DNA from: an uncultured Anaeroplasmataceae bacterium | Lineage (GTDB): Bacteria; Bacillota_I; Bacilli_A; Acholeplasmatales; Anaeroplasmataceae | Assembly (NCBI GenBank): GCA_934229785.1 | Contig: CAKQEA010000002.1 | Span: 92,115-156,114 of the forward strand | Direction of reading: 5' to 3' | DNA length: 64,000 bases | Part shown: positions 6,480-46,184 of the stretch, piece after piece | How the letters are laid out: each line of letters starts with the position of its first letter | How positions within the stretch are numbered: position 1 is the first letter of the stretch | Notes under the pieces: model-generated | Database searches by the model: none | Seen by the model: the letters and a program-made list of their open reading frames with translations, nothing else | Told to the model about the DNA's origin: nothing | Program-made: the position numbers and the translations under genes

Positions 6480-7907
6480 ATGAAAACAATAAATACTTAT
6501 CCTATGAATCATCAGAGTGACATCTGTATCGATGTCACTCTGATGATTGAGTTCAATACAAAGCCGGTTCTGAATCGGAAGGGTTTCATCAGGATCTATG
6601 ATTATGATACGGACGAGCTTGTGGATGAATTAAATCTGAGTATTCCTTCTGGGCCTACGGCTCCTAGAAACAATACGGAGGCTAGATATACTACCGACTA
6701 CCGATATAAGAGCGAAAACATCACGAATAAGAATACGAAGGCCGGGAGTCTATCCATGGAATACAGAAGTTCTCCGGATCCTTATCAGCTGACGATCATC
6801 GGTGGGTTTAAGGAAGGGTTCCATTTCTATCCTGTCATCATCAAAGATGATAGAGCGATGATCCAGCTTCACCATAATCTTTTAGAATACGGGCATAAAT
6901 ATTATGTCTTGATCGATAAAGAGGTATTCAATGGTTTTGATGGAATCGATCATAAAGACGTGTTCTGCTTCTCCACGAAGAAAGAAAGACCTATCGGAAA
7001 CAGGTTCGTCGTCGATAAGAATCACGGTGATTTCTATACGGTTCAGGGAGCAATCGACAATATTCCCGATTTTTCAGATAGGAAATACTTCGTCGATATC
7101 AAAAACGGTGAATATGAGGAATTGGTCTATTTCAGGAACAAAAGCAATATCGTCATCACCGGAGAAAGTAAGAACGGTGTCTTGATCCATTATGCCAACA
7201 ATGAGGTATTCAATCCACATCCGGAATATGTGAAGACGAATGAAAAGGTAGGGACCTTTCCGTCAAGAAGAGCTGCGTTTTTTATGGACAACTGTCATGG
7301 TATCGTGATGAGAAATCTGACCGTGAAGACGGATCTGCATGGTCAGGCTGAGGGTCTTCTTGTCAACGGATACGATAACTGCTTTGAGAATATCCATATC
7401 ATAGGTAGCGGGGATGCGCTTCAGACCAACGGTCCCGCCTATTACAGAAATTGCATCATCGATGGAGAGGGGGATACGATTCTAGGTAGAGGCCCGGCTT
7501 TCTTCGAGAATACGACACTGAATAGCCATGGTGCTTTCATGTGGATCAGAAACGGCAAAGAGAACCACGGGAATGTCTTCGTCAACTGCATGTTCAACGG
7601 ATTGGATGATGATGCTACGATCGTAAGACTTCCCGACAATAAAGGAATCAGTTATCCGGACAGCGAATGCGTATTGATCAACTGCACTCTGAACCATGTT
7701 CCGGATATCGGATATGGACCTATTGAGGGTGACTCTAAAAAGGCAAGATTATGGGAATATGGTAGCAAGGATATTCATGGGAATGAGATTGATGTCAGAT
7801 ATCGAAACACTGTGGCTAGGATATTGAGAGATGAGGATAGGGATATCATCGAAAAATACATGGATTATCATTATGTTCTAGGCGATGATTTCAAGATGTC
7901 TCTTTAA
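6480..7907 (+). CDS. Pectinesterase family protein (CE8), cytoplasmic
   Basis: 475 residues. About 1-170 form an Ig-like beta domain; about 175-460 form a right-handed parallel beta-helix of the pectin methylesterase type. Family signatures are GDFYTVQGAID at the helix start, GQAEGLL, GSGDALQTNGP (first catalytic Asp) and GEGDTILGRGPAFF (second catalytic Asp). The usual LGRPW arginine motif is not clear. There is no signal peptide, so if active it would demethylate imported oligogalacturonides rather than polymer outside. RBS GGGAG sits 5 bases before the ATG. Codon and base composition differ strongly from the neighbours, consistent with transfer. It may cooperate with the GH28 enzyme at 25368, which also lacks a signal peptide. 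Confidence 0.85.
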   Translation: MKTINTYPMNHQSDICIDVTLMIEFNTKPVLNRKGFIRIYDYDTDELVDELNLSIPSGPTAPRNNTEARYTTDYRYKSENITNKNTKAGSLSMEYRSSPDPYQLTIIGGFKEGFHFYPVIIKDDRAMIQLHHNLLEYGHKYYVLIDKEVFNGFDGIDHKDVFCFSTKKERPIGNRFVVDKNHGDFYTVQGAIDNIPDFSDRKYFVDIKNGEYEELVYFRNKSNIVITGESKNGVLIHYANNEVFNPHPEYVKTNEKVGTFPSRRAAFFMDNCHGIVMRNLTVKTDLHGQAEGLLVNGYDNCFENIHIIGSGDALQTNGPAYYRNCIIDGEGDTILGRGPAFFENTTLNSHGAFMWIRNGKENHGNVFVNCMFNGLDDDATIVRLPDNKGISYPDSECVLINCTLNHVPDIGYGPIEGDSKKARLWEYGSKDIHGNEIDVRYRNTVARILRDEDRDIIEKYMDYHYVLGDDFKMSL

Positions 7908-12893: not shown

Positions 12894-13271
12894 TTACTCA
12901 TTTTTACACTTTGAACATAAGCCATACATATTAAGCTCATATTCATCAACTATATTACCATCGACTTTTTTTATTTGTTCTAAATCAACACCAAGTTCAC
13001 TAGGAGTTATATCAATAACATTTCCGCAGCATCTACAAATAAAATGACAATGCTTTGCCTTAACTGTTTCATATACCTCACAATTTTGAAGCTTTATTTT
13101 TTTTACTAAATGCTCCTCCATCAAAATAGACAAATTACGATATATTGTTGCCAAAGAGATATCAGTATAATTATTATTAATATATTTGATTAAATCCTCA
13201 CTTGTTACATGGCCTAAATAATCAATTGCTTCATAAACAATTTGTCTTTGGTTTGTATTTCTCCTTATCAT
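12894..13271 (-). CDS. Fur-family metalloregulator (PerR-like)
   Basis: 125 residues. The winged helix covers about 1-80 (TNQRQIVYEAI, HVTSEDLIKYI, ATIYRNLSIL), followed by the dimerisation domain. The structural zinc site is two CxxC pairs: CRCC near 95 and CSKC near 119. The HCHF-like metal-binding stretch is KHCHFICR. Whether it senses peroxide, iron or zinc cannot be settled by sequence alone; an anaerobic lifestyle and the nearby flavo-diiron protein favour a PerR-like role. A 21-bp palindrome overlaps its own -10 box, implying autoregulation. RBS AAGGAG lies 5 bases before the ATG. Confidence 0.88.
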   Translation of the reverse strand: MIRRNTNQRQIVYEAIDYLGHVTSEDLIKYINNNYTDISLATIYRNLSILMEEHLVKKIKLQNCEVYETVKAKHCHFICRCCGNVIDITPSELGVDLEQIKKVDGNIVDEYELNMYGLCSKCKNE

Positions 13272-13290
13272 AATAGCTCCTTATTAAGAT

Positions 13291-13311
13291 TAATTATCAT
13301 TAAGATAATTA
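13291..13311 (-). promoter_or_regulatory. Fur/PerR-type operator (autoregulatory)
   Basis: Perfect 8-bp arms TAATTATC and GATAATTA around a 5-base centre. The arms use the same GATAAT/ATTATC vocabulary as Fur and PerR boxes. The site overlaps the -10 box (TATAAT, 13308-13313) of the regulator gene, where binding would block transcription. Confidence 0.75.
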
Positions 13312-13327
13312 TAACATAAATATATTA

Positions 13328-16300
13328 TTATTCAAGAAGCTCTAAGATATCATTTTTAGTAAGTTTAACCTTGTTTTGCTCATCAGAATTAACAATACTT
13401 TCAGCAAGCTCACGTTTTAAGGCTTGAAGCTTAACAACTTTTTCCTCAATAGTATCCTTACAAATTAGCTTTACAACATAAACATTCTTTGTTTGACCAA
13501 TACGATAAGCTCTATCTGTTGCTTGATTTTCAGCACTACTATTCCACCATGGATCTAGATGAATTACCATATCAGCGCCAACTAAATTCAAACCAGTTCC
13601 ACCAGCCTTTAATGATATAGCAAAAACCTTAATATCAGGATTTGAATTAAACTCCTCAACCATTTCCATACGTGTTTTAGCCTTAGTTGTACCATCAAGT
13701 TGGAAATACTTAATTTCCATTCTATCTAGTTCTTTAGTTAAGATAGAAAAGCTTTGAGCAAATTGTGAAAAAACTAAAATACGATGACCAGCATCAACTG
13801 ATGACCTGATTAAATCAACAGCCATATTTATCTTAGTATTTTCAAACTCCTCCTGATATATAAGCTCAGGTGTAATACAAATTTGACGAAGTCTTGTTAG
13901 CATAGCAAGTATATTATTTTCACCATGAGCTAAATCATCCTTTAGCTTAGCAACATGAGCATCATATACAGCTCTTTGCTTATCACTCATCTTACAATAA
14001 TAGTAATCTTCAATCTTATCAGGTAAATCTGTTAACACATCTGACTTACGTCTTCTTAAGATAAACGGACTAACTCTTTTTTGTAACTTAGTTAATGCAT
14101 CTGTATCATCATGAACAATTAAAGATTCATATCTTGATTTAAAATGAGAATAGTTGGATAAATAACCTGGCATTAAATAATCAAAAATACTCCATAAATC
14201 AGCTAATCCATTTTCAATAGGTGTACCTGTTAGGGCAAAGTTAATATCAGATTTTAATGTTTTAACCGCTTCACTCTTTTGAGCAAATTGATTTTTAATA
14301 AATTGAGCTTCATCAGCAATAACAAATCTAAAATGAGATAAATATAAAGAAATATCTCGGCGTAGTGAATCATAAGATGTAATATAAATAACCTTCTTAT
14401 TATCAGCTATATTTCTTATTATCTCCTCACGTTCTAAGGCACTACCTAAAACAAGCTTTACAGGAGATGTCAATCCCCATTTAATACATTCATTTTCCCA
14501 GTTATAAACTAAAGACATTGGGCAAACAATCAAGCTTGGCTTCTTAGCCTCATCAGATTCAATAAAGCTAATAATTTCTAGCGTTTTACCAAGTCCCATA
14601 TCATCAGCTAAAATTCCACCAAAGCCAAATGATGCCAAAGTTTTTAACCACTTAAACCCATCTAGCTGATATGGTCTTAATGTATTTTTAAAGCTATCAG
14701 TTGGTTCAAAGCTATTCTTTTTATAATTTTGAATTGTAGTAATCATTTTTAAAAGCTGTGAATCAAGTGATAGATTATTATCTTTTACCTCAACAAGTTT
14801 AAGCAAATAATTTAGCGGCTTAGAAACATTCTTCTTTATATCCTTTATTGAAATATTAAAATCCTCAAGGAAGTCATCGATTTCCTTAGCATCCTCTACA
14901 TTTATCTCAATAATTGTATTATCCTTTAGCTTAACAAATTTTTTCTTTTGATGGTAAGCCATAAGCATTGTTTGAATTTCTTCTAAAGTTAAAGTTGAAT
15001 TTTCAAAAGTAAAATCTAAAAGTCCAACATTATAAGAAATATTAATTTGAGTTTTTCCACTTTTTTTAGCATGAATATCCTTCATACTTTCATCAAAGAA
15101 AACATTACCAAAAGATTTTAAAGCGGTCAAATCACTCGTTAAAAATTTATATTGATTTTCTATATTACAAATATTGTATTTTCCGTCTTTATTTTTGGCG
15201 AAATAAAAAGATTCAATAAGTGAAAAATAACCATCTAAAAGCTCATTTAAATAAGGGCTATTTTCATCTTGAGGTCTTGATACAACCTTATAATTTAAGT
15301 AAATATTTCCATTTTCATATGAAACAAAACTATCAACCTTAATATCTGGAACTGGGTATTTTTCATAAAATTCATTTTCAATCTTAATGCTACCCTTAAT
15401 CATTGGTAATAATGTAGATATAAAATTTTCACTATTAACATCAACCATTAAACCACCATCAACCTTGTAAAGACAATCAAAAATTTTACCTTCCATACGG
15501 TTTTTATATTGATATGTATAGATGAATTCATCATCAATGAAATATGCATTTTTTACTCCACAAATAAACACCTTAGAATCATTAGGAGCACAAACCTTTA
15601 GTTCTTCAGCGTTTAATATAAGCTCAACATTATCTATTTTAACAATTTTTCTTTCAGTAAGCTTTAATTCAAAATTAGATTTATAAAAAATGCTCTCACC
15701 CTGATAAATCTCTAAAATTTTAAGCATATGAGATTTACGAATGGTAACAGCTTTTTCTGTATTTTCATTACATATATTAGCTAAGAAGCTATAGAACTCC
15801 TTACTAACATCATCTAAGCATTCATATGAATGAACAAATGAAAGCTTTTGGCCATATGAATATTCAATATGATTTTCAATAAAATGAATAAATTCAGAAA
15901 TACTTTTTACAACATAATCCTTATCAAAGCCAACCTTTAATGATAATAAATAATTATGTCCACATGCCTCAATACAAGGAATAAGGTGAATTTTACCAAA
16001 ATATGAATTTGCCGTTTTCAATTCATTTGAAAGTCTATCTAAAATCTCACCATGCTTTTTAGAAACAACTTTTCTTTTATATTTTTCAAACTCAGAATCA
16101 AAAGTCTTCTTATTTAAAACCATCAAACTAATAGCGTATAAAGCAACAGTATGAATACAGTCATGCTTACGATAAAACTCCAAACATCCACATTCTCTAT
16201 TAACAATATTAAGTTTTGAATCAAGGACTATAGATGTCTTTGTAGCTCCCATAATCTTATAAAATAAAAAAGTTGGTTCAATTTTATATTCTTTATTTTC

Positions 16301-20583: not shown

Positions 20584-22059
20584 TTAAAACTCCATACAAG
20601 CATTAACTGCTTTTTTCCATCTATCATATTTTTCTTTTTCATCTTTGTTTATTTTAGGAACATATAATTTGCTATTTTTATAATGCTTCTTTATATCCAT
20701 TAAATTATTAAACAAACCCTTATTTAATCCTACTAAATAAAATACTCCAAGTGAGGTAGCTTCACTAGTTGAAATTGTCTTTATTTGACTATACATCACA
20801 TCAGCCTGAACCTGCATTAATTTAGAATTTAATGAAGCACCACCATCAACACTTATATCCTTTAATTCAAGCTTGGTATCCTCAAGCATAGATATCATAA
20901 CATCCTTATTCAAATAAGCAACTCCCTCTATTGTTGCCCAGGCTATATTTTCCTTTGATGTTCCACGAGTTAAGCCAAAAATTGCCCCCTTACATTCAGA
21001 ATTCCAATATGGCGCACCTAAGCCTGTTAAAGCAGGGATGAAAACTACACCATTTGAATTTTCCACAGCAAACTCAGAATCAGATAAATCCTTAACAAGC
21101 TCTAAGTTATCTCTAATAAATTGGAAGGCACTGCCTGCAACAAACACGCTACCCTCTAAAGCATAGCATATTTCATCATCAATCGCATAAGCAATTGTAC
21201 TTAATAGACCATTTTTAGAATTATAAATCTTCTTACCAGTATTCATAAGCATGAATGATCCTGTTCCATACGTAATCTTAAGCATTCCCTCTTCAAAACA
21301 TGTATGACCAATAAGTGATGACTCTTGATCTCCAATCAATCCACATACCTCTAAATTACATATCTCTTTTATTCTTATCTCACTAATATTACCAATTGTA
21401 GCATTTGATGATACAACCTTAGGAAGAGTATTTCTATTAATTTTAAACAATTTAAGAAGCTCATCATCATAATCTAGAGTGTGGATATTAAAAAGCATGG
21501 TTCTTGAGGCATTAGTATAATCTGTAACATGAATTCCACCACAAAGCTTATAAATTAGCCATGAATCTATAGTACCAAATAATAAATTTCCTTCATCCAT
21601 AAGCTCTTTAGCCCCGCTAACATTATCAATTATCCACTTCATTTTACTAGCACTAAAGTAAGGATTAATTAATAACCCCGTTTTTTCTTTTATCATTTTT
21701 TCATATCCAGAAACCTTAAGCTTTTCACAAATTTCATTTGTTTGAGTTGATTGCCACACAATTGCCTTATAAATAGGCTGTCCAGTTTTTTTATTCCAAG
21801 CAACAGTTGTTTCTCTTTGATTTGTAATTCCTACTCCAATAATATCAGAATAATCAATATTTACCTCATATAAGGCTGTTGTTATAAGAAAAACTACATC
21901 CTCATATATTTCTAAAGCATCATGCAAAACATAATTAGGGTATGGATAATATTGTTTAAATGCTTTAACATTCTTATAAATTATATTTCCTCTTTCATCA
22001 AAAATAATTACTCTTGATGAGGTTGTTCCTTGGTCAATTGTAATAACATATTTACTCAT
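20584..22059 (-). CDS. glpK: Glycerol kinase
   Basis: 491 residues from the ATG at 22059, chosen because GGAGG lies 6 bases upstream and the product then starts MSKYVITIDQGTTSSR, the usual N-terminus. FGGY-family signatures: DQGTTSSR phosphate motif, TNQRETTVAW, KWIIDN, GDQESSLIGHTCF, TYGTGSFML and VDGGASLN. It phosphorylates glycerol to sn-glycerol 3-phosphate. It overlaps the preceding gene by 8 bases, though no functional link to it is obvious. No glycerol facilitator or dehydrogenase is nearby. Confidence 0.95.
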   Translation of the reverse strand: MSKYVITIDQGTTSSRVIIFDERGNIIYKNVKAFKQYYPYPNYVLHDALEIYEDVVFLITTALYEVNIDYSDIIGVGITNQRETTVAWNKKTGQPIYKAIVWQSTQTNEICEKLKVSGYEKMIKEKTGLLINPYFSASKMKWIIDNVSGAKELMDEGNLLFGTIDSWLIYKLCGGIHVTDYTNASRTMLFNIHTLDYDDELLKLFKINRNTLPKVVSSNATIGNISEIRIKEICNLEVCGLIGDQESSLIGHTCFEEGMLKITYGTGSFMLMNTGKKIYNSKNGLLSTIAYAIDDEICYALEGSVFVAGSAFQFIRDNLELVKDLSDSEFAVENSNGVVFIPALTGLGAPYWNSECKGAIFGLTRGTSKENIAWATIEGVAYLNKDVMISMLEDTKLELKDISVDGGASLNSKLMQVQADVMYSQIKTISTSEATSLGVFYLVGLNKGLFNNLMDIKKHYKNSKLYVPKINKDEKEKYDRWKKAVNACMEF

Positions 22060-23011
22060 CCCTAGCCTCCATTTTTTTAACAAACTCCACGCTTATTTCA
22101 AAATTATAAAAATCCTTACGACTACAACCAGCTCTACCTCCGCCAGCACAAGCACAGGCACACGCACACGCACAGCTATGAGATGTATGTGAGCTTGATG
22201 GTGGATTTATAGCCTTACCATTTTTACTTCTTCCACTATTATAAAATGTACAATAGTACCACATAGGATATCTTGAGAAATTTTCTCCAGAAAATCCTCT
22301 ATAGGCCTCATAGCTATTATTCTTTGTCTTTATAACAACAATAATAAAAATAACAATAAATAAAACCACAAACATTGATATACTAGCCACTGCTATAATA
22401 ATTCCTAGTTTATGATCCTTTGTTTCAATTAAATTTGGATATAATGCCTTATCATATGAAACTTTAACATTAATTTTTTCACCTTTTTTTAATGACTTAT
22501 CCCACAATAAATAATCATCTATAACACTACTAGCATTAGAATCTTTTACGTTATTTTTATTCCATAAAACCTGTAGTTTTTTTACCTCAATATCATCAAA
22601 CCATCCAGGAGTAAAATCATAGCTTATAATTTCATCATTAAATGTATATATTCTCAACAAATGAAATTTAAAATCAAATGTAACAATATCATTCTTATAA
22701 GCCTTTTCTTTTAAATCGCAACGAATAAAGTCACCATCGTCATCAAATAAATAAGCATTTAAAACATCATTAGATAAATTTTTTAAATCACCAATATATT
22801 TATTAGGAATACCAATCTTAACCCATTCTAATGGTTCTGTATCATCTAAAACTAACCATTTAATTTCATAACGTAAATCAAGTGTTCCATCATCACGCTG
22901 ATCAACAGTTATCTTATAGCTTTCTATTTCATCTAAAGTCTTATCCTCATCACAGGAGCTTAGTAGAAAAAAAGAAAAAAAACAAACAATTATAAATAAA
23001 AGCTTTTTCAT
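22052..23011 (-). CDS. Membrane lipoprotein with CACACACACAGGGRAGC tail (putative radical-SAM substrate)
   Basis: 319 residues from the ATG at 23011, chosen for RBS GAGGTG 5 bases upstream and a 4-bp ATGA overlap with the radical SAM gene. Order of parts: signal peptide with lipobox LLSSC; an extracytoplasmic beta-rich domain of about 180 residues with no family I recognise (loosely like DUF2207); one membrane helix near 203-230; then an inside tail rich in Gly, Ser and aromatic residues. Residues 280-296 read CACACACACAGGGRAGC, followed by SRKDFY. Five Cys alternate with Ala, then a Gly-rich turn and a sixth Cys. Placement directly after a radical SAM/SPASM gene and an Fe-S protein suggests this tail is modified or carries a metal or thioether centre. 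Function unknown; the link is inference. Confidence 0.75.
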   Translation of the reverse strand: MKKLLFIIVCFFSFFLLSSCDEDKTLDEIESYKITVDQRDDGTLDLRYEIKWLVLDDTEPLEWVKIGIPNKYIGDLKNLSNDVLNAYLFDDDGDFIRCDLKEKAYKNDIVTFDFKFHLLRIYTFNDEIISYDFTPGWFDDIEVKKLQVLWNKNNVKDSNASSVIDDYLLWDKSLKKGEKINVKVSYDKALYPNLIETKDHKLGIIIAVASISMFVVLFIVIFIIVVIKTKNNSYEAYRGFSGENFSRYPMWYYCTFYNSGRSKNGKAINPPSSSHTSHSCACACACACAGGGRAGCSRKDFYNFEISVEFVKKMEARDE

Positions 23012-24360
23012 TTTTTCACCTCTTTTAGCTGACATAGTCCATGTGAAGTTGCGCTTATTTTTCTAATTTTTTTACACCTTTTACTATTCCAAATATTTTT
23101 AAAGCTCTTATTTAAAATATTACCTAAGCCATCCTCAAACAACCAGCTTTGACATGGTAGAACCTCTCCATTAGGTGCAATTGCCATATTAGACATACAT
23201 GCTCCACATGATGGTATAATCATATGCATTTTTAAAAGTAAATCATCCTTAATCCAGCCAGGAGAGGTGAATGCTATCTCTAAATTTTTTGTTTTAGCAT
23301 AGTCATATGCCAACCTCAAGCTTTTATAAATTTCGTTCTCATTAAGCTTAGTAACCTCTGAAATAGCATTTTTAGCATTTCCTGATGGAATTAAGCCCGA
23401 GGTAGAAAAATACCTAACACCTAGGCTTTCTGCAAATTTTATAGTATTAACATAATCTTTATTTAAGCTGCAAAGTGGGGTATTAATACTTACATCTAAT
23501 CCAGCCTCCAAAGCATTTTTAATTCCTTCAACTGTTTCCTTGAAATGATTAGTCCCAACTAAAGTATTATGAATATCCTCATCAAATGAATATAATGTAA
23601 TTTGAACAGAATCTAAGCTTGCAGCATATAAATTTTTACATAACTCCTTTGTAAGTAATATACCATTAGTGTTTAAACGAGTAACAAACCACTTAGCATG
23701 ATTAACAAGTGCAACCAAATCATTTCTTTTAGTTGGTTCACCACCAGTAAAAGTTAAAGCTGGTATTCTTGCTGTATAACATTTATCAATAATTTTAAAC
23801 CAATCCTCTGTTTTTAATTCCTCTACATTGGCCATTTTTTCATTGGCTGCATAACAATGTAAGCACCTTTGATTACAATTCCAGCATCCATTTTTCTCCA
23901 TTGCTGAAATCATCAAATCCATTCGATGAGGGGAATACATAAATTTTGAATATTTAGCTAATGTAGTATAACCGATTTCAACCTTTGGTTCCTTTCCTAA
24001 AGCAATATCAACTAATGTTTCAACAATATCCTTTAAATCAGATTTAATCATTTTATCCTTTGCCTCAGGATAAATCTTTTTAACATTTAAAACAACCTTA
24101 GAAATAATTGTATCTAAATAGCTATCATCTATTTCATTACCATCTATCATATTAATGGTTAAAATAAATTCTCTTAATAATACTGCCCACGTAGTTTGAA
24201 GAGAAATTAATGAATAACCATTTATTATCGCCACAAAAGGAACACCAACAGCTAGCTTCTTTGGTGGAACAAGATGAATCCTAACAACACCTGGGCCCTT
24301 AGGATTTATTGTAGTATGAACTACATTATTACATTCCTTCAAATATTTTTTTAAATTCAT
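23008..24360 (-). CDS. Radical SAM/SPASM protein, putative peptide-modifying enzyme
   Basis: 450 residues. The N-terminal ~140 residues form a separate helical domain that could be a RiPP-recognition-like module. The radical SAM domain begins with CWNCNQRCLHCY near 158-169 (CxxxCxxC, binding the cluster that cleaves SAM), followed by TFTGGEPTKRNDL and NTNGILLT. The C-terminal SPASM-like region (from about 375) has CGACMSNMAIAPNGEVLPC, GNILNKSFKNIW, and a final CQLKE Cys for auxiliary Fe-S clusters. SPASM enzymes usually modify peptides or proteins. The following gene overlaps by 4 bp and encodes the Cys-Ala repeat protein, its most likely partner. Confidence 0.85.
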   Translation of the reverse strand: MNLKKYLKECNNVVHTTINPKGPGVVRIHLVPPKKLAVGVPFVAIINGYSLISLQTTWAVLLREFILTINMIDGNEIDDSYLDTIISKVVLNVKKIYPEAKDKMIKSDLKDIVETLVDIALGKEPKVEIGYTTLAKYSKFMYSPHRMDLMISAMEKNGCWNCNQRCLHCYAANEKMANVEELKTEDWFKIIDKCYTARIPALTFTGGEPTKRNDLVALVNHAKWFVTRLNTNGILLTKELCKNLYAASLDSVQITLYSFDEDIHNTLVGTNHFKETVEGIKNALEAGLDVSINTPLCSLNKDYVNTIKFAESLGVRYFSTSGLIPSGNAKNAISEVTKLNENEIYKSLRLAYDYAKTKNLEIAFTSPGWIKDDLLLKMHMIIPSCGACMSNMAIAPNGEVLPCQSWLFEDGLGNILNKSFKNIWNSKRCKKIRKISATSHGLCQLKEVKK

Positions 24361-24367
24361 ATATACC

Positions 24368-24730
24368 TCACCAAGATAATTTGCTTAAATTATACAAAAC
24401 ATCATTATAGCTCATATCATCATTAAAAATATCAATAAATTTTTTATATTCGGAAATTTTCTTATCTTTTTTACTGTCATCTAAACTATTTAAATAAAAA
24501 TCATTAGTTCTTCCACATGGATAAGCACATATAATACAATCAGGTAATAATTCTTTCTTTAGTTTAGCTAAATAATCAATATAGTAAGACAAATTATTTT
24601 TATTTTTCAAAGCTCTACATACCTCAAAAACAATAGGCTCAAGTTTTGAAATATCGCCTTCAGCTGTAACTCCATTAATTATTGCAATAAGCTTAGCAAG
24701 TACAGTATTTTCTAAATCATCTAATAACAT
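24368..24730 (-). CDS. Small conserved-looking protein with CxxCxxPC motif
   Basis: 120 residues, mostly helical, with one cysteine cluster, CIICAYPCGRTNDF near 65-78. The CxxCxxxC spacing could bind an Fe-S cluster or zinc. I do not recognise the family. Its start overlaps the end of the ferredoxin-type gene by 10 bases and its stop is 8 bases before the radical SAM gene, so it is translated with both. A role as an electron-transfer or accessory subunit for the radical SAM step is plausible but not shown. Confidence 0.6.
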   Translation of the reverse strand: MLLDDLENTVLAKLIAIINGVTAEGDISKLEPIVFEVCRALKNKNNLSYYIDYLAKLKKELLPDCIICAYPCGRTNDFYLNSLDDSKKDKKISEYKKFIDIFNDDMSYNDVLYNLSKLSW

Positions 24731-25359
24731 TTAACAATCTCTCCCTTTATAGAAATAATTCTTACAGATGAGTGGATATCCTTACCACTTTCTAAAATTG
24801 CATTTTTCATTTGTATTTCAAGTCCACCGCAGCAAGGAACCTCCATACGAACAAGTGTGATGCTCTTAATATTATTATTTCTTAATATTTCTGTTAATTT
24901 TATTTGATAATTAACACCATCAAGCTTAGGACAAGCAATAAATGTAATTCTTTTTTCCATAAAATCCTTATGAAAATTTTGATAAGCATAAGCTGCACAG
25001 CTTGCCGATAATAATATATGAGCTCCATCATAAGCCTCACTTGTTACAGGTACAAGCTTTAGCTGACATGGCCAAAAGCCTAATCCTGATCTATTAAAAT
25101 TTAGCGTTTTGTTTAAACCACTACTCTTTTTATTTTCTAATACCAATTCTTCATTATAGGAATCGGCCTCTCTCATCACAATTTTAATTGCATCCTTAGG
25201 ACAATGTGGTAAGCAATCTCCTAATCCATCGCAATAATCATCCTTAATCAATTTAGCTTTACCATCAACAATCGTAATTGCTCCTTCATGACACGCCTTA
25301 GCACATAGTCCACAGCCATTACATTTTTCACTATCTATTTCAACAATTTTACGTATCAT
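24721..25359 (-). CDS. 2x[4Fe-4S] ferredoxin-like protein
   Basis: 212 residues. Residues 1-65 are a two-cluster ferredoxin: CNGCGLCAKAC at 13-23 and CDGLGDCLPHC at 43-53. The C-terminal ~130 residues match the domain seen in ferredoxin-type proteins found near hybrid cluster protein genes in anaerobes (QLKLVPV, LLSASCAAYAYQNFHKDF, ACPKLD), with a final VPCCGG. It may be a reductase-type redox protein. The operon position just upstream of the radical SAM enzyme suggests it supplies the electron for SAM cleavage; no hcp gene is present here. Confidence 0.82.
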   Translation of the reverse strand: MIRKIVEIDSEKCNGCGLCAKACHEGAITIVDGKAKLIKDDYCDGLGDCLPHCPKDAIKIVMREADSYNEELVLENKKSSGLNKTLNFNRSGLGFWPCQLKLVPVTSEAYDGAHILLSASCAAYAYQNFHKDFMEKRITFIACPKLDGVNYQIKLTEILRNNNIKSITLVRMEVPCCGGLEIQMKNAILESGKDIHSSVRIISIKGEIVKCY

Positions 25360-25367
25360 ATTCTTCC

Positions 25368-26666
25368 CTACCTATTATCATATTCATCATTTTTATGATC
25401 ATTTTCACCTTTAAAGCTAATATTTGAATCAACAAATAAAACATCAGCATATCTAATAAATCCATATTCCTTAGCTTTAATATTAACATTTTTAAAGATA
25501 ATATCATGCATGTATGAATCACTAAAGCCTTCTATGTTAAACGCTCTAGAAATACCATAATAATCATCTTTGTATGTCGATACAACATTATTAACAAAAA
25601 TATTAGATACTTCCGTGTTCACTCCATCAGTTTTCATACATAAGGTTTTAATAGTTTTTGTTATTTCCCCATTATAATCATTAGGTAGGGTACAAATACT
25701 ATAGTTCGGATTCCAATTTAAAAACCAATGAAATGCATATTTAACATTTATCATTTTGATATTATCAACATAAACATTTTTTATATAACCTTTTCTAGGT
25801 AATGATGACTTAATTCTAAAGCCACAATCAGTCCCATCAAACACTAAATTCTTCAACCATACATTATAAATACCACCTGATACCTCACTACCAATCGTAA
25901 CACCAAAGCCCTCTTTAAATTTACAATCTACTATGCTTATATCATGACATGGTCTATTGACTCTTATTCCATCATAATCTCTACCTGATTTAATACTAAT
26001 TGAATCATCATTTGTTCGTAATACACAATTTTTAACAATTATATTACTTGAAGAATCAATATCTATTCCATCAGTGGATGGAGCACATAAATTTGAAGAA
26101 TCTATATGAATATTATCAACAATAATATTATCACTGTACAAAATATGAACATTCCAAAAGCCAGATTCAAATGAGGTAATATCCTTAATTTCAATATTAC
26201 TAGAATTAGAAATAACTAAATTTCTAGGTCTCATACAATCATAGTCACATAAAAAGCGTAATCCTTTAGCATCATATTCCTTACGCATTCCACCATGCAT
26301 ATCAATTCCCCAATATTTACTCCACCAATAAGGTCCATTTCCATTAATAATACCTTTACCAGAAATTGTAACATTATGGCAATTATTACAATTTAAAATT
26401 CCCGGATACCATTTCATTTCAACACCAGCAATACGTGTATCAACTAACACATAATCACACTCATTAACAGAGGCAATTAATTCTGCATTATTATCAATAA
26501 TCAAATTAATATTACTCTTTAAAAATAATCCTGAAACTAAATATTTACCACTACTTATAACTAAGGTATCATCATTATGTAAAAAATCTATTATTTTTTG
26601 AATATCTTTCGTAACATTTGTTTTACCATCATTTGCTACATTATATTTTTTTATATCTATAATCAT
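25368..26666 (-). CDS. GH28-family (polygalacturonase-like) glycoside hydrolase
   Basis: 432 residues from the ATG at 26666, chosen for GAGG 6 bases upstream; the earlier in-frame ATG gives an unlikely basic leader. The protein is a right-handed beta-helix. GH28 motifs: STDGIDID near 200, NDDSISIKSG near 220 (catalytic Asp pair) and FRIKSS near 285. The third motif is GFGVTIGSE near 256, where most members have GHG, so the conserved His is replaced by Phe. There is no signal peptide, implying action on imported oligosaccharides. It starts the operon that continues into the ferredoxin gene 8 bases later. Activity may be altered. Confidence 0.82.
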   Translation of the reverse strand: MIIDIKKYNVANDGKTNVTKDIQKIIDFLHNDDTLVISSGKYLVSGLFLKSNINLIIDNNAELIASVNECDYVLVDTRIAGVEMKWYPGILNCNNCHNVTISGKGIINGNGPYWWSKYWGIDMHGGMRKEYDAKGLRFLCDYDCMRPRNLVISNSSNIEIKDITSFESGFWNVHILYSDNIIVDNIHIDSSNLCAPSTDGIDIDSSSNIIVKNCVLRTNDDSISIKSGRDYDGIRVNRPCHDISIVDCKFKEGFGVTIGSEVSGGIYNVWLKNLVFDGTDCGFRIKSSLPRKGYIKNVYVDNIKMINVKYAFHWFLNWNPNYSICTLPNDYNGEITKTIKTLCMKTDGVNTEVSNIFVNNVVSTYKDDYYGISRAFNIEGFSDSYMHDIIFKNVNIKAKEYGFIRYADVLFVDSNISFKGENDHKNDEYDNR

Positions 26667-26702
26667 TTTAAACCTCAAAAGAAAAAGTACAACATTTATC
26701 TT

Positions 26703-26730
26703 ATTATACTTTATTCTAAAGGAAAAATAA
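26703..26730 (-). promoter_or_regulatory. Promoter of the GH28-to-rluA operon
   Basis: -10 TATAAT (26703-26708) with TTTATT 17 bases upstream as a weak -35. It lies between the preceding terminator and the GH28 start. Confidence 0.5.
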
Positions 26731-26786
26731 AGCACTCAAAAAGAGAAACCTTAACCTTAAGGCTTCACTTAAAAGTGCTTTTTTAA
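26727..26786 (-). terminator. Long imperfect terminator hairpin of the LOG-family gene
   Basis: AAAGCACT and AGTGCTTT form the base of a stem of more than 20 bases with several mismatches, topped by GCCTT/AAGG pairs, then ATTTTT on the minus strand. Confidence 0.6.
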
Positions 26787-44918: not shown

Positions 44919-46184
44919 TTAAATATTATCAACAACACCAATAAACAAAGCTACACCATAAGAATCAGATAAAACATAACCAAAGCTTTTATTTACAACA
45001 AATTCCTTTAAATTAGAGCTAAAGCTTGATGAATCAGTGGTTGAAAGTGTAACTGCTGCACCTTCTATTCCTTTTTTATTAGCTTTAAAATTCACCATCT
45101 GAATTAAGCTAGATGCATATGCATCATTTTCAAATAGCTTATAATCATTAGATAAATCAAATAATGACTTAACCCCTAGTGTGGATAATTTATCTTTTAA
45201 ATCACCATTATACTTACTTTCAAATTCAGGGAATATTACACGAGTATAGGTTGAATCATCCTTAATATAATTAGAATTATCTAATTTTAACATATTATTA
45301 AGATTATCATTATTCATAATAGTATATAAATCCTTATTATCATTAGGAATTATGAATGTTAATTTTAAATCATTACTCGTTTTTTGATAAACACATGAAT
45401 AATCATCACCAACATAAGCTTCACCTAAAAAACTATTACCAACAAGAAATTTCTTTTTAGTTGTTGTATTATCATAATTTTTAAATTCATAATCATTTTT
45501 TGTATAGCTTAACCCAACCTCATTCCACAAATCAGAAGCATATAAGGAATTAATTAAAGTAAATATTGTGTTCTCACTAAAATTTAAATTAGGATTAATT
45601 AAGCCATTTGTATTATCCGAAATATATTTTGAAATATTTGTTGAAGTATTTTTATTTGAATAATCTACAATAAATGATGAGGCATTAAAGCAATTATATA
45701 AATCATATAAGCACTCATTTTTATATTTAACATTATTAGAAATCCAAATTGAATTAACCAAATTTTCCTTATGATATACCTCTTCATTACTTAGCTTTTC
45801 CTTCATTGACAATCCATATAAAGCCTTTGTATATTTTAAAATATCATTATAATCAATATCTAAAAAATTAATTAACTCATTATACGTATTACCACTAGTT
45901 ATAGTAGATGTCATAGCTAAATTCATATATAAAGACAAAGGTGATATTGCATTAGTATTTTTATCTAAAATATTTGCAGATGATTTTGCTGAAAAACTAT
46001 TTAATTTTTCAATAAATAATTTATAATCATCAGAAGAGATATTATAATCAGCTAATTTTTTATTAACTATATTACAGGAACTATAGACCTTATTAACCTC
46101 AGTAGAATTTACACCACATGAAGATAAAGCAATAAGACCAATTAAGGAACTACTAAAAACTAATTTTTTTAAATTGTATTTCAT
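44919..46184 (-). CDS. Serpin, membrane-anchored lipoprotein
   Basis: 421 residues. Signal peptide with lipobox IALSSC (Cys near 23), then a serpin fold: NAISPLSLYMNLAM near the helix B/C region, FTLINSLYASDLW, and the hinge of the reactive-centre loop KGIEGAAVTLSTTDSS near 380-395, followed by NKSFGYVLSD and LFIGVV at the C-terminus. The small-residue hinge is the feature of inhibitory serpins that insert their loop. It lies 29 bases after a secreted papain-like protease gene in one operon, suggesting a protease-inhibitor pair. The target could equally be a host or competitor protease. Confidence 0.88.
   Translation of the reverse strand: MKYNLKKLVFSSSLIGLIALSSCGVNSTEVNKVYSSCNIVNKKLADYNISSDDYKLFIEKLNSFSAKSSANILDKNTNAISPLSLYMNLAMTSTITSGNTYNELINFLDIDYNDILKYTKALYGLSMKEKLSNEEVYHKENLVNSIWISNNVKYKNECLYDLYNCFNASSFIVDYSNKNTSTNISKYISDNTNGLINPNLNFSENTIFTLINSLYASDLWNEVGLSYTKNDYEFKNYDNTTTKKKFLVGNSFLGEAYVGDDYSCVYQKTSNDLKLTFIIPNDNKDLYTIMNNDNLNNMLKLDNSNYIKDDSTYTRVIFPEFESKYNGDLKDKLSTLGVKSLFDLSNDYKLFENDAYASSLIQMVNFKANKKGIEGAAVTLSTTDSSSFSSNLKEFVVNKSFGYVLSDSYGVALFIGVVDNI

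Follow-up and report, generated by a model that had tools for sequence, protein, structure and literature searches.

The window analysed here is a stretch of 64,000 nucleotides from contig CAKQEA010000002.1 of an uncultured Anaeroplasmataceae bacterium. This report concerns a radical S-adenosylmethionine (SAM) enzyme encoded in it and the adjacent membrane protein, which carries a tail of alternating Cys and Ala residues. On the minus strand, the open reading frames (ORFs) of the locus run in the order ferredoxin-like gene, small CxxCxxPC gene, radical SAM/SPASM gene and membrane-protein gene (Table 1). A first-pass annotation of the window had described four ORFs in a single direction with overlaps of 10 and 4 base pairs (bp), and its coordinates and overlaps are correct: the ferredoxin-like and small genes share 24721-24730 and the enzyme and membrane-protein genes share 23008-23011, with a spacing of 7 bp between the small gene and the enzyme gene. 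The longest ORF for the membrane protein spans 22052-23035, and the start that fits its relatives is the ATG at 23011. The tail had been described as Cys alternating with Ala and then GGGRAGC, and in the window it indeed reads CACACACACAGGGRAGCSRKDFY.

Table 1. Features of the locus, in window coordinates.
Feature	Position	Strand	Basis
Membrane-anchored candidate substrate: lipobox signal peptide, outer beta domain, one transmembrane helix, disordered tail of Cys and Ala predicted to be cytoplasmic	22052..23011	-	alignments, hydropathy, charge bias, AlphaFold model
Tail motif CACACACACAGGGRAGC, proposed modification site	22124..22174	-	sequence; 120/120 listed relatives; synonymous codon variation
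Transmembrane helix joining beta domain to tail (approximate)	22322..22411	-	hydropathy peak; model helix 203-232
Radical SAM enzyme: PqqD-like-aligned N-terminal domain, CX3CX2C core (C162, C166, C169), shortened SPASM/twitch (C385, C403, C443 invariant)	23008..24360	-	
Small CxxCxxPC protein, 120 residues: neighbour, judged outside the core system	24368..24730	-	no relatives with the enzyme in 198 Bacilli genomes
2x[4Fe-4S] ferredoxin-like protein with C-terminal extension: neighbour, judged outside the core system	24721..25359	-	Fer4 domains

A protein search with the membrane protein returned 2746 relatives at an E-value of 0.01, and the figures given here for its relatives come from the 120 that were listed. 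The few named relatives (Bacilli, Anaeroplasmataceae) and the low G+C content of the window suggest a Bacilli-type genome of low G+C. GRAGC is present in all 120, and the Cys-Ala units preceding GGGRAGC number five in 95 of them and four in 25. When 97 membrane-protein sequences were aligned, 14 of the 18 invariant columns fell inside the tail motif, and in the alignments the tail is conserved above the remainder of the protein. For a codon test, 61 copies of CACACA-[GS][GS]G-x-AGC, a pattern that itself fixes Cys and Ala, were collected from 58 of 61 sources. The motif codons vary synonymously, Cys being encoded by TGT and TGC in about half of the cases each and Ala by all four codons. Because of this variation, the tail appears to be under selection as protein, and its maintenance as a DNA repeat kept by slippage was ruled out. 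As judged from these comparisons, the conservation of the tail is not due to chance.

The motif varies in detail. One locus (L004) has GRADC, and nine Lachnospiraceae loci (L031-L034, L039, L043, L045, L049 and L054) have SSGRAGC, with Ser-Ser replacing Gly-Gly (CACACACASSGRAGC); the eight enzymes of these nine loci form one supported clade in the enzyme tree described below, L054 being a piece of DNA without an enzyme gene. Of the substrate ORFs, 11 of 13 in Chloroflexota and 18 of 26 in Acidobacteriota have GGGR as the end of the protein. A second tail type, (HSAC)n, ends in GGAR, GGAK or GGAH in nine of 12 cases, the exceptions being L114, L115 and L179. The GG-x-basic element behind the Cys array may be a recognition site for the enzyme.

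The AlphaFold model of the window protein consists of a beta domain at residues 29-189 (predicted local distance difference test score, pLDDT, mostly 93-98), a helix at residues 203-232 and a tail, from about residue 240 to 306, that is predicted to be disordered (pLDDT mostly under 50). A single hydrophobic segment lies between residue 40 and the motif in 119 of the 120 relatives. Lys/Arg and Asp/Glu average 8.7 and 2.1 in the 60 residues after this segment, and 2.9 and 4.9 in the 30 residues before it. Because the Lys/Arg excess follows the segment, the positive-inside rule places the tail of these 120 nearest relatives on the cytoplasmic side, the same side as the enzyme, which bears out the earlier proposal of a cytoplasm-facing tail. 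The accompanying description of the protein as a lipoprotein holds for the window member and not for the family as a whole, as a lipobox-like site occurs in just 52 of the 120. One or two hydrophobic segments are found in the proteins of the tail loci L001-L060 in the Chloroflexota proteins and in the Clostridia (HSAC)n proteins, and the size of the candidate substrate ranges from about 300 residues in the window (also given as ~320) to more than 500 elsewhere. The outer domain gave no match to PF09972 (DUF2207) in the window protein at an E-value of 0.1, nor in L057, L058 and L060 at an E-value of 1; L005 scored 15.5 bits, below the cut-off of 24.4 (E-value 0.021).

Species genomes were scanned with a profile of the membrane protein, which yielded at least 60 loci (L001-L060). 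An enzyme relative lies in the flanks of 57 of the 60 listed, so that tail carriers without a neighbouring radical SAM gene are the exception, and the co-occurrence of the two families expected in the first-pass annotation is found here as well as in the genome samples described below. In L054 and L056, two of the loci lacking the enzyme, the tail match starts at the start of the contig. There were 11 ORF clusters represented in at least six of the 60 loci, one for the tail protein, in 59 loci, one for the enzyme, in 57, one for an ABC ATPase, in 8, and a further eight whose representatives overlap the tail or enzyme genes in other frames; no third conserved partner was found among them.

Genome samples are named here by the titles of their seed records, as Bacilli (L003, Acholeplasmatales), Clostridia (L005), Chloroflexota (L060) and Acidobacteriota (L059, Candidatus Aminicenantes, which we take to be placed in this phylum by GTDB). 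Most titled records are metagenome-assembled genomes. Among the Bacilli, the DNA pattern CACACAGGG occurs in six of 198 genomes and a reversed-pattern control in none of the 198. The same six genomes match the enzyme profile at 694-734 bits, the best other matches reaching 96 and 103 bits. Without the two seeds, which had been picked by their tails, tail and enzyme occur in 4 and 4 of 196 genomes, a coincidence with a chance of ~1 in 6x10^7 if the genomes are independent. In the Clostridia, the tail pattern, which is blind to the SSG variant, and an enzyme match of at least 730 bits coincide in the same two of 196 genomes, one of them a seed.

The enzyme profile matched 14 of 201 Chloroflexota genomes (15 matches). 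All 12 matches of at least 354 bits (one of them a seed) adjoin a protein ending in CACACA(CA)0-2-GCACACAGGGR, and two matches at 212-233 bits lie beside (HSAC)n tails. Enzyme matches were obtained in 28 of 149 Acidobacteriota genomes; of the 27 that are not seeds, 20 adjoin a CACA tail, six an (HSAC)n tail and one (L174) neither. Enzyme-tail pairs also occur, by record title, in Actinomycetota (L017, L023), in Krumholzibacteriota (L057) and in one archaeon, the single locus L058, so that the titles place the pair in five bacterial phyla and one archaeal genome. The L017 and L023 enzymes group with those of Lachnospiraceae in the tree, and transfer or mis-binning is possible for these two.

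The gap between enzyme and tail genes is at most 100 bp in 93 of 98 pairs, with a maximum of 1238 bp, and the nearest tail gene is always on the same strand. Two or more tail-type proteins per enzyme gene are encoded at L009, L011, L013 and L026, where one enzyme might serve several tail substrates. Chloroflexota loci (L060 at 13205-14365, L103-L106 and L108-L112) often encode a second enzyme-like protein of ~376-388 residues; the one in L060 scores 30.6 bits for the radical SAM domain (cut-off 29.5) and lies slightly below the cut-off for SPASM. An additional protein of 334-346 residues is encoded at six Chloroflexota loci, and a gene that resembles a methyltransferase by eye lies near the pair in L060. 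A plasmid or viral system was also considered and rejected. The enzyme, searched against plasmids by tblastn, gave 244 records, all under 60% identity and with the top places at ~24%. A viral scan with its profile gave five distant matches (24-33%), and another, made with the membrane protein, found no relatives.

The (HSAC)n tails belong to a sister system. In the Clostridia sample, a second tier of enzyme matches at 104-163 bits was found in six genomes, and all four loci examined (L084-L087) adjoin a protein with ACHS repeats ending in ACVSGGAR or ACVSGGAK. In all four, a third gene encodes 327-341 residues. At L085, no protein of the three reached an NCBIfam cut-off among the models shown; the third gene there had no NCBIfam match at an E-value of 0.001 and no Pfam match at 0.1, and the only domains named by Pfam are those of the enzyme (radical SAM, SPASM and Fe-S).

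A tree of the enzymes was built from 105 sources. An enzyme ORF of 180 residues or more was present in 100 of them, of which 98 also had a tail; L004 and L059 were dropped as too short. The 98 enzymes fall into two sides, separated with a Shimodaira-Hasegawa-like approximate likelihood ratio test (SH-aLRT) value of 100: CACA tails account for 84 of 85 on one side and (HSAC)n tails for 12 of 13 on the other. In L006, the remaining one on the CACA side, the tail sits in a separate ORF of 87 residues. Three label changes suffice to explain the three tail labels, compared with 13.5 in shuffles, and none of 200 shuffles was as low. The tree is a quick one, rooted at its midpoint and containing two long branches (L172 and L058); L001-L060 were retrieved by their tails, so that their labels are not independent, and the remaining loci were retrieved by the enzyme. 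On this tree, the enzyme clade follows the tail type.

From this pairing, the enzyme very probably modifies the cytoplasmic tail of the membrane protein, that is, the tail is its substrate. Certain loci weigh against this reading. L010 has an intact CACACACAGGGRAGC tail and 10 kb on each side, and the enzyme was not found there; the whole genome (G002), which is perhaps incomplete, gave no enzyme match at an E-value of 1e-10. This tail may be an orphan substrate, or the assembly may be incomplete. A weak Chloroflexota enzyme match of 141 bits (L116) has no tail of either type beside it, and an enzyme of the (HSAC)n clade (L174) lies on a 9.2-kb piece from which the tail protein is absent. Outside the nearest relatives the number of transmembrane segments varies, from 0 to 4 in the Acidobacteriota sample, which leaves the orientation of the tail unsettled there. 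The tail without an enzyme in L010, together with the inferential basis of tail modification, would also suit a different arrangement, in which enzyme and tail protein work in a shared pathway and the substrate is another protein or a small molecule. We consider this very unlikely, as the enzyme clade tracks the tail type, the tail is more conserved than the remainder of its protein and the clusters found in at least six of the 60 loci include no third conserved partner.

The enzyme family is large: of 7999 relatives scored, 6478 lie within an E-value of 1e-60 (120 listed). The window enzyme matches PF04055 (radical SAM) at 72.2 bits (cut-off 29.5) and PF13186 (SPASM) at 40.2 bits (cut-off 21.5), and the Cys trio of CX3CX2C is kept in 194 of 194 aligned relatives. 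In the group of the window enzyme (174 aligned relatives) the SPASM region has only the three invariant Cys residues C385, C403 and C443; three further SPASM Cys residues are absent from this group but kept in all 20 lower-scoring relatives, which comprise the Chloroflexota, L057, L058 and (HSAC)n-type enzymes. Because only three invariant Cys residues are kept, one auxiliary Fe-S cluster appears likelier than two in the window group.

The first-pass annotation had suggested a search of residues 1-140 of the enzyme for a peptide-recognition element. Such a domain is recognizable in the enzyme family, where PF05402 (PqqD-like) is above its cut-off in six of ten Chloroflexota enzymes, with an E-value below 0.01 in all ten, and also above cut-off in the L060 enzyme. 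For the window enzyme it is suggested by alignment and fold only: its N-terminal region aligns with the PqqD-like part of L060, and SkfB and SuiB, both peptide maturases, match its structural model across nearly the full length. In VIA-align these matches start at residue 26 (SkfB) and residue 15 (SuiB), close to the N-terminus, whereas CteB and TigE match only from residue 133-140; NifB and one biotin synthase are also listed, from residues 18-48. Foldseek aligned SuiB, SkfB, CteB and TigE over 430-475 columns with root-mean-square deviations of 7.6-16.3. The missing N-terminal match to CteB and TigE should not be taken as evidence of a difference. Among its best 25 NCBIfam families, the window enzyme lies below every cut-off shown (SkfB 67.6 of 300 bits, StsB 67.7 of 625, WgkB 102.1 of 650), as does the L058 enzyme (PapB 76.5 of 340, AlbA 107.7 of 850), so that assignment to a family with a known, unrelated substrate is not indicated by the models shown.

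We hypothesize that the enzyme docks on the cytoplasmic tail via its N-terminal PqqD-like domain, and that its CX3CX2C cluster generates a 5'-deoxyadenosyl radical. An auxiliary Fe-S cluster, perhaps with an open site for a substrate thiolate, would then join Cys sulfurs to nearby Ala or Gly carbons, and the Cys-Ala array would come to carry a number of small thioether rings. Because this product would stay on a membrane protein with an outward beta domain, it might have a structural, redox or metal-binding role within the cell and would not be a secreted peptide. For the thioether step, parallels are available in SkfB, which has a recognition element (RRE) and a twitch domain, in CteB, whose auxiliary cluster has an open site with density assigned to a Cys (both PMC6231123), and in RumC1, whose thioether-bridged residues include Ala (PMC6779426). 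These parallels are analogies. A Cys thioether is the most likely bond in the tail and about as probable as all other outcomes taken together, and we give the same even weight to the two genes forming a thioether-forming protein-maturation system.

The chemistry has points against it. The N-terminal domain is not matched by PF05402 in the window enzyme, L005, L057, L058 or L085, and is assigned there through alignment or fold. The alternating Cys-Ala layout is unlike the hairpin layout of known sactipeptides, and the tail is part of a ~320-residue protein, unlike the short leader-core precursors of sactipeptide and ranthipeptide systems. We know of no modified product for the tail system. SPASM enzymes that catalyse other reactions (formylglycine, carbon-carbon bonds, cyclopropylglycine, epimerisation) share similar folds, and the enzyme could act on Cys differently, for example by oxidizing it to formylglycine in the way that sulfatases are matured anaerobically, or by another Cys-centred reaction. 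This is distinctly unlikely: the membrane proteins scanned contain no Pfam sulfatase domain, several consecutive Cys residues would be unusual for such an oxidation, and the top matches starting near the N-terminus are SkfB and SuiB.

The tail could instead bind metal or Fe-S clusters through its thiolates, with the enzyme building, loading or repairing this centre, or acting as its redox partner, without covalent crosslinks. The dense Cys array of four or five Cys-Ala units, the possible His ligands in (HSAC)n tails and a zinc-ribbon-like CxxC...CxxC pattern, which precedes the tail in 39 of the 62 substrate ORFs from L001-L060, would suit such a role. Radical SAM enzymes with a PqqD-like domain are known as peptide modifiers, and loading a metal would not need one, which makes this explanation unlikely. 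It and formylglycine-type oxidation are retained as the main rivals of thioether formation. We put forward, tentatively and at somewhat less than an even chance, the wider reading of an undescribed radical SAM modification in five bacterial phyla and an archaeal genome. In it, the tail would become an array of thioether rings, with (Cys-Ala)n-GGGR and (His-Ser-Ala-Cys)n subclasses served by their own enzyme clades, and would have a structural, redox or metal-related function at the membrane, without being secreted as a peptide.

Most of the known radical SAM peptide maturases act on small peptides. A modification within a larger protein is made by QhpD, the maturase of quinohemoprotein amine dehydrogenase, a radical SAM enzyme that forms Cys to Asp/Glu thioethers within an enzyme subunit; this is the likeness to the system proposed here. 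The ACGX system (TIGR04340), whose partner peptide carries Ala-Cys-Gly-x repeats, also has a radical SAM/SPASM enzyme, and the window enzyme scores 58.1 bits of 400 against it. TIGR04133 (rSAM_w_lipo) suggests a lipoprotein link by its name alone (90.3 bits of 425). SkfB (PDB 6efn) is the sactisynthase of the sporulation killing factor, a small killing peptide in contrast to the membrane-protein tail here, and the window enzyme matches its model at only the score given above. SuiB (PDB 5v1q, 5v1s, 5v1t), the maturase of SuiA, joins Lys to Trp and has a full SPASM domain with two auxiliary clusters, unlike the shortened region of the window enzyme. PMC6231123 describes its reaction as a cross-link between two side chains of a short peptide. 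Ruminococcin C and other sactipeptides resemble the proposed system in that radical SAM enzymes crosslink them at Cys, and the bridged residues of RumC1 include Ala (PMC6779426). They differ in being antimicrobial peptides that have leaders and a hairpin layout and lack a membrane anchor.

Neither protein is named as part of such a pair in the Pfam and NCBIfam models shown, and searches of the open-access literature, a scope that leaves out most subscription papers and preprints, found no description of the enzyme/Cys-Ala-tail system. A survey of radical SAM gene clusters mentions Asp-Cys repeats and, in its accessible part, not Cys-Ala (PMC9062424); the accessible parts of PMC12631010 and PMC11898968 have no bearing on the system. 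We judge that radical SAM maturation with an RRE-bearing enzyme is known and that the membrane-protein tail as candidate substrate is new. Here, peptide-maturase machinery goes together with a highly conserved membrane-protein tail across distant phyla, and the two tail types follow two enzyme clades. The pairing suggests that membrane proteins undergo a chemical modification not described before, and if the tail is modified, the substrate and enzyme relatives counted above would represent a large and so far unexplored set of modified proteins.

The ferredoxin-like and CxxCxxPC genes, which the first-pass annotation had included in a four-gene set, do not travel with the enzyme-tail pair in the samples. 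Relatives of the small protein were found in two of 198 Bacilli genomes (E-value 1e-5) and of the ferredoxin-like protein in nine of 198 (E-value 1e-15), and the six genomes that have both enzyme and tail contain neither. In the flanks of the 60 listed loci, the only tblastn match was one of 66 residues to the ferredoxin-like protein (L027); the small protein had none. The small protein has no Pfam or NCBIfam match at an E-value of 0.1. The two genes occur together without the enzyme in two Bacilli genomes, G194 and G014 (L131 and L132). A four-gene system was rejected, as these genes are absent from the six Bacilli genomes with the pair and from nearly all flanks, and we judge that they look like a separate module outside the conserved system. 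They may serve the window operon, for example as an electron donor, and the four genes may stay linked within a narrow lineage of the closest relatives (P0001 and P0002).

A gene that by eye resembles a Crp/Fnr regulator is found close to the ferredoxin-like gene in L132-L134. Directly upstream of the ferredoxin-like gene in the window is a glycoside hydrolase family 28 gene (25368-26735), and a gene that by eye is pectinesterase-like lies at 6480-7907. Elsewhere in the window, the gene at 29841-30458 matches PF14196 (L-2-amino-thiazoline-4-carboxylic acid hydrolase), and a lipoprotein-like ORF at 44919-46184 resembles a serpin by eye.

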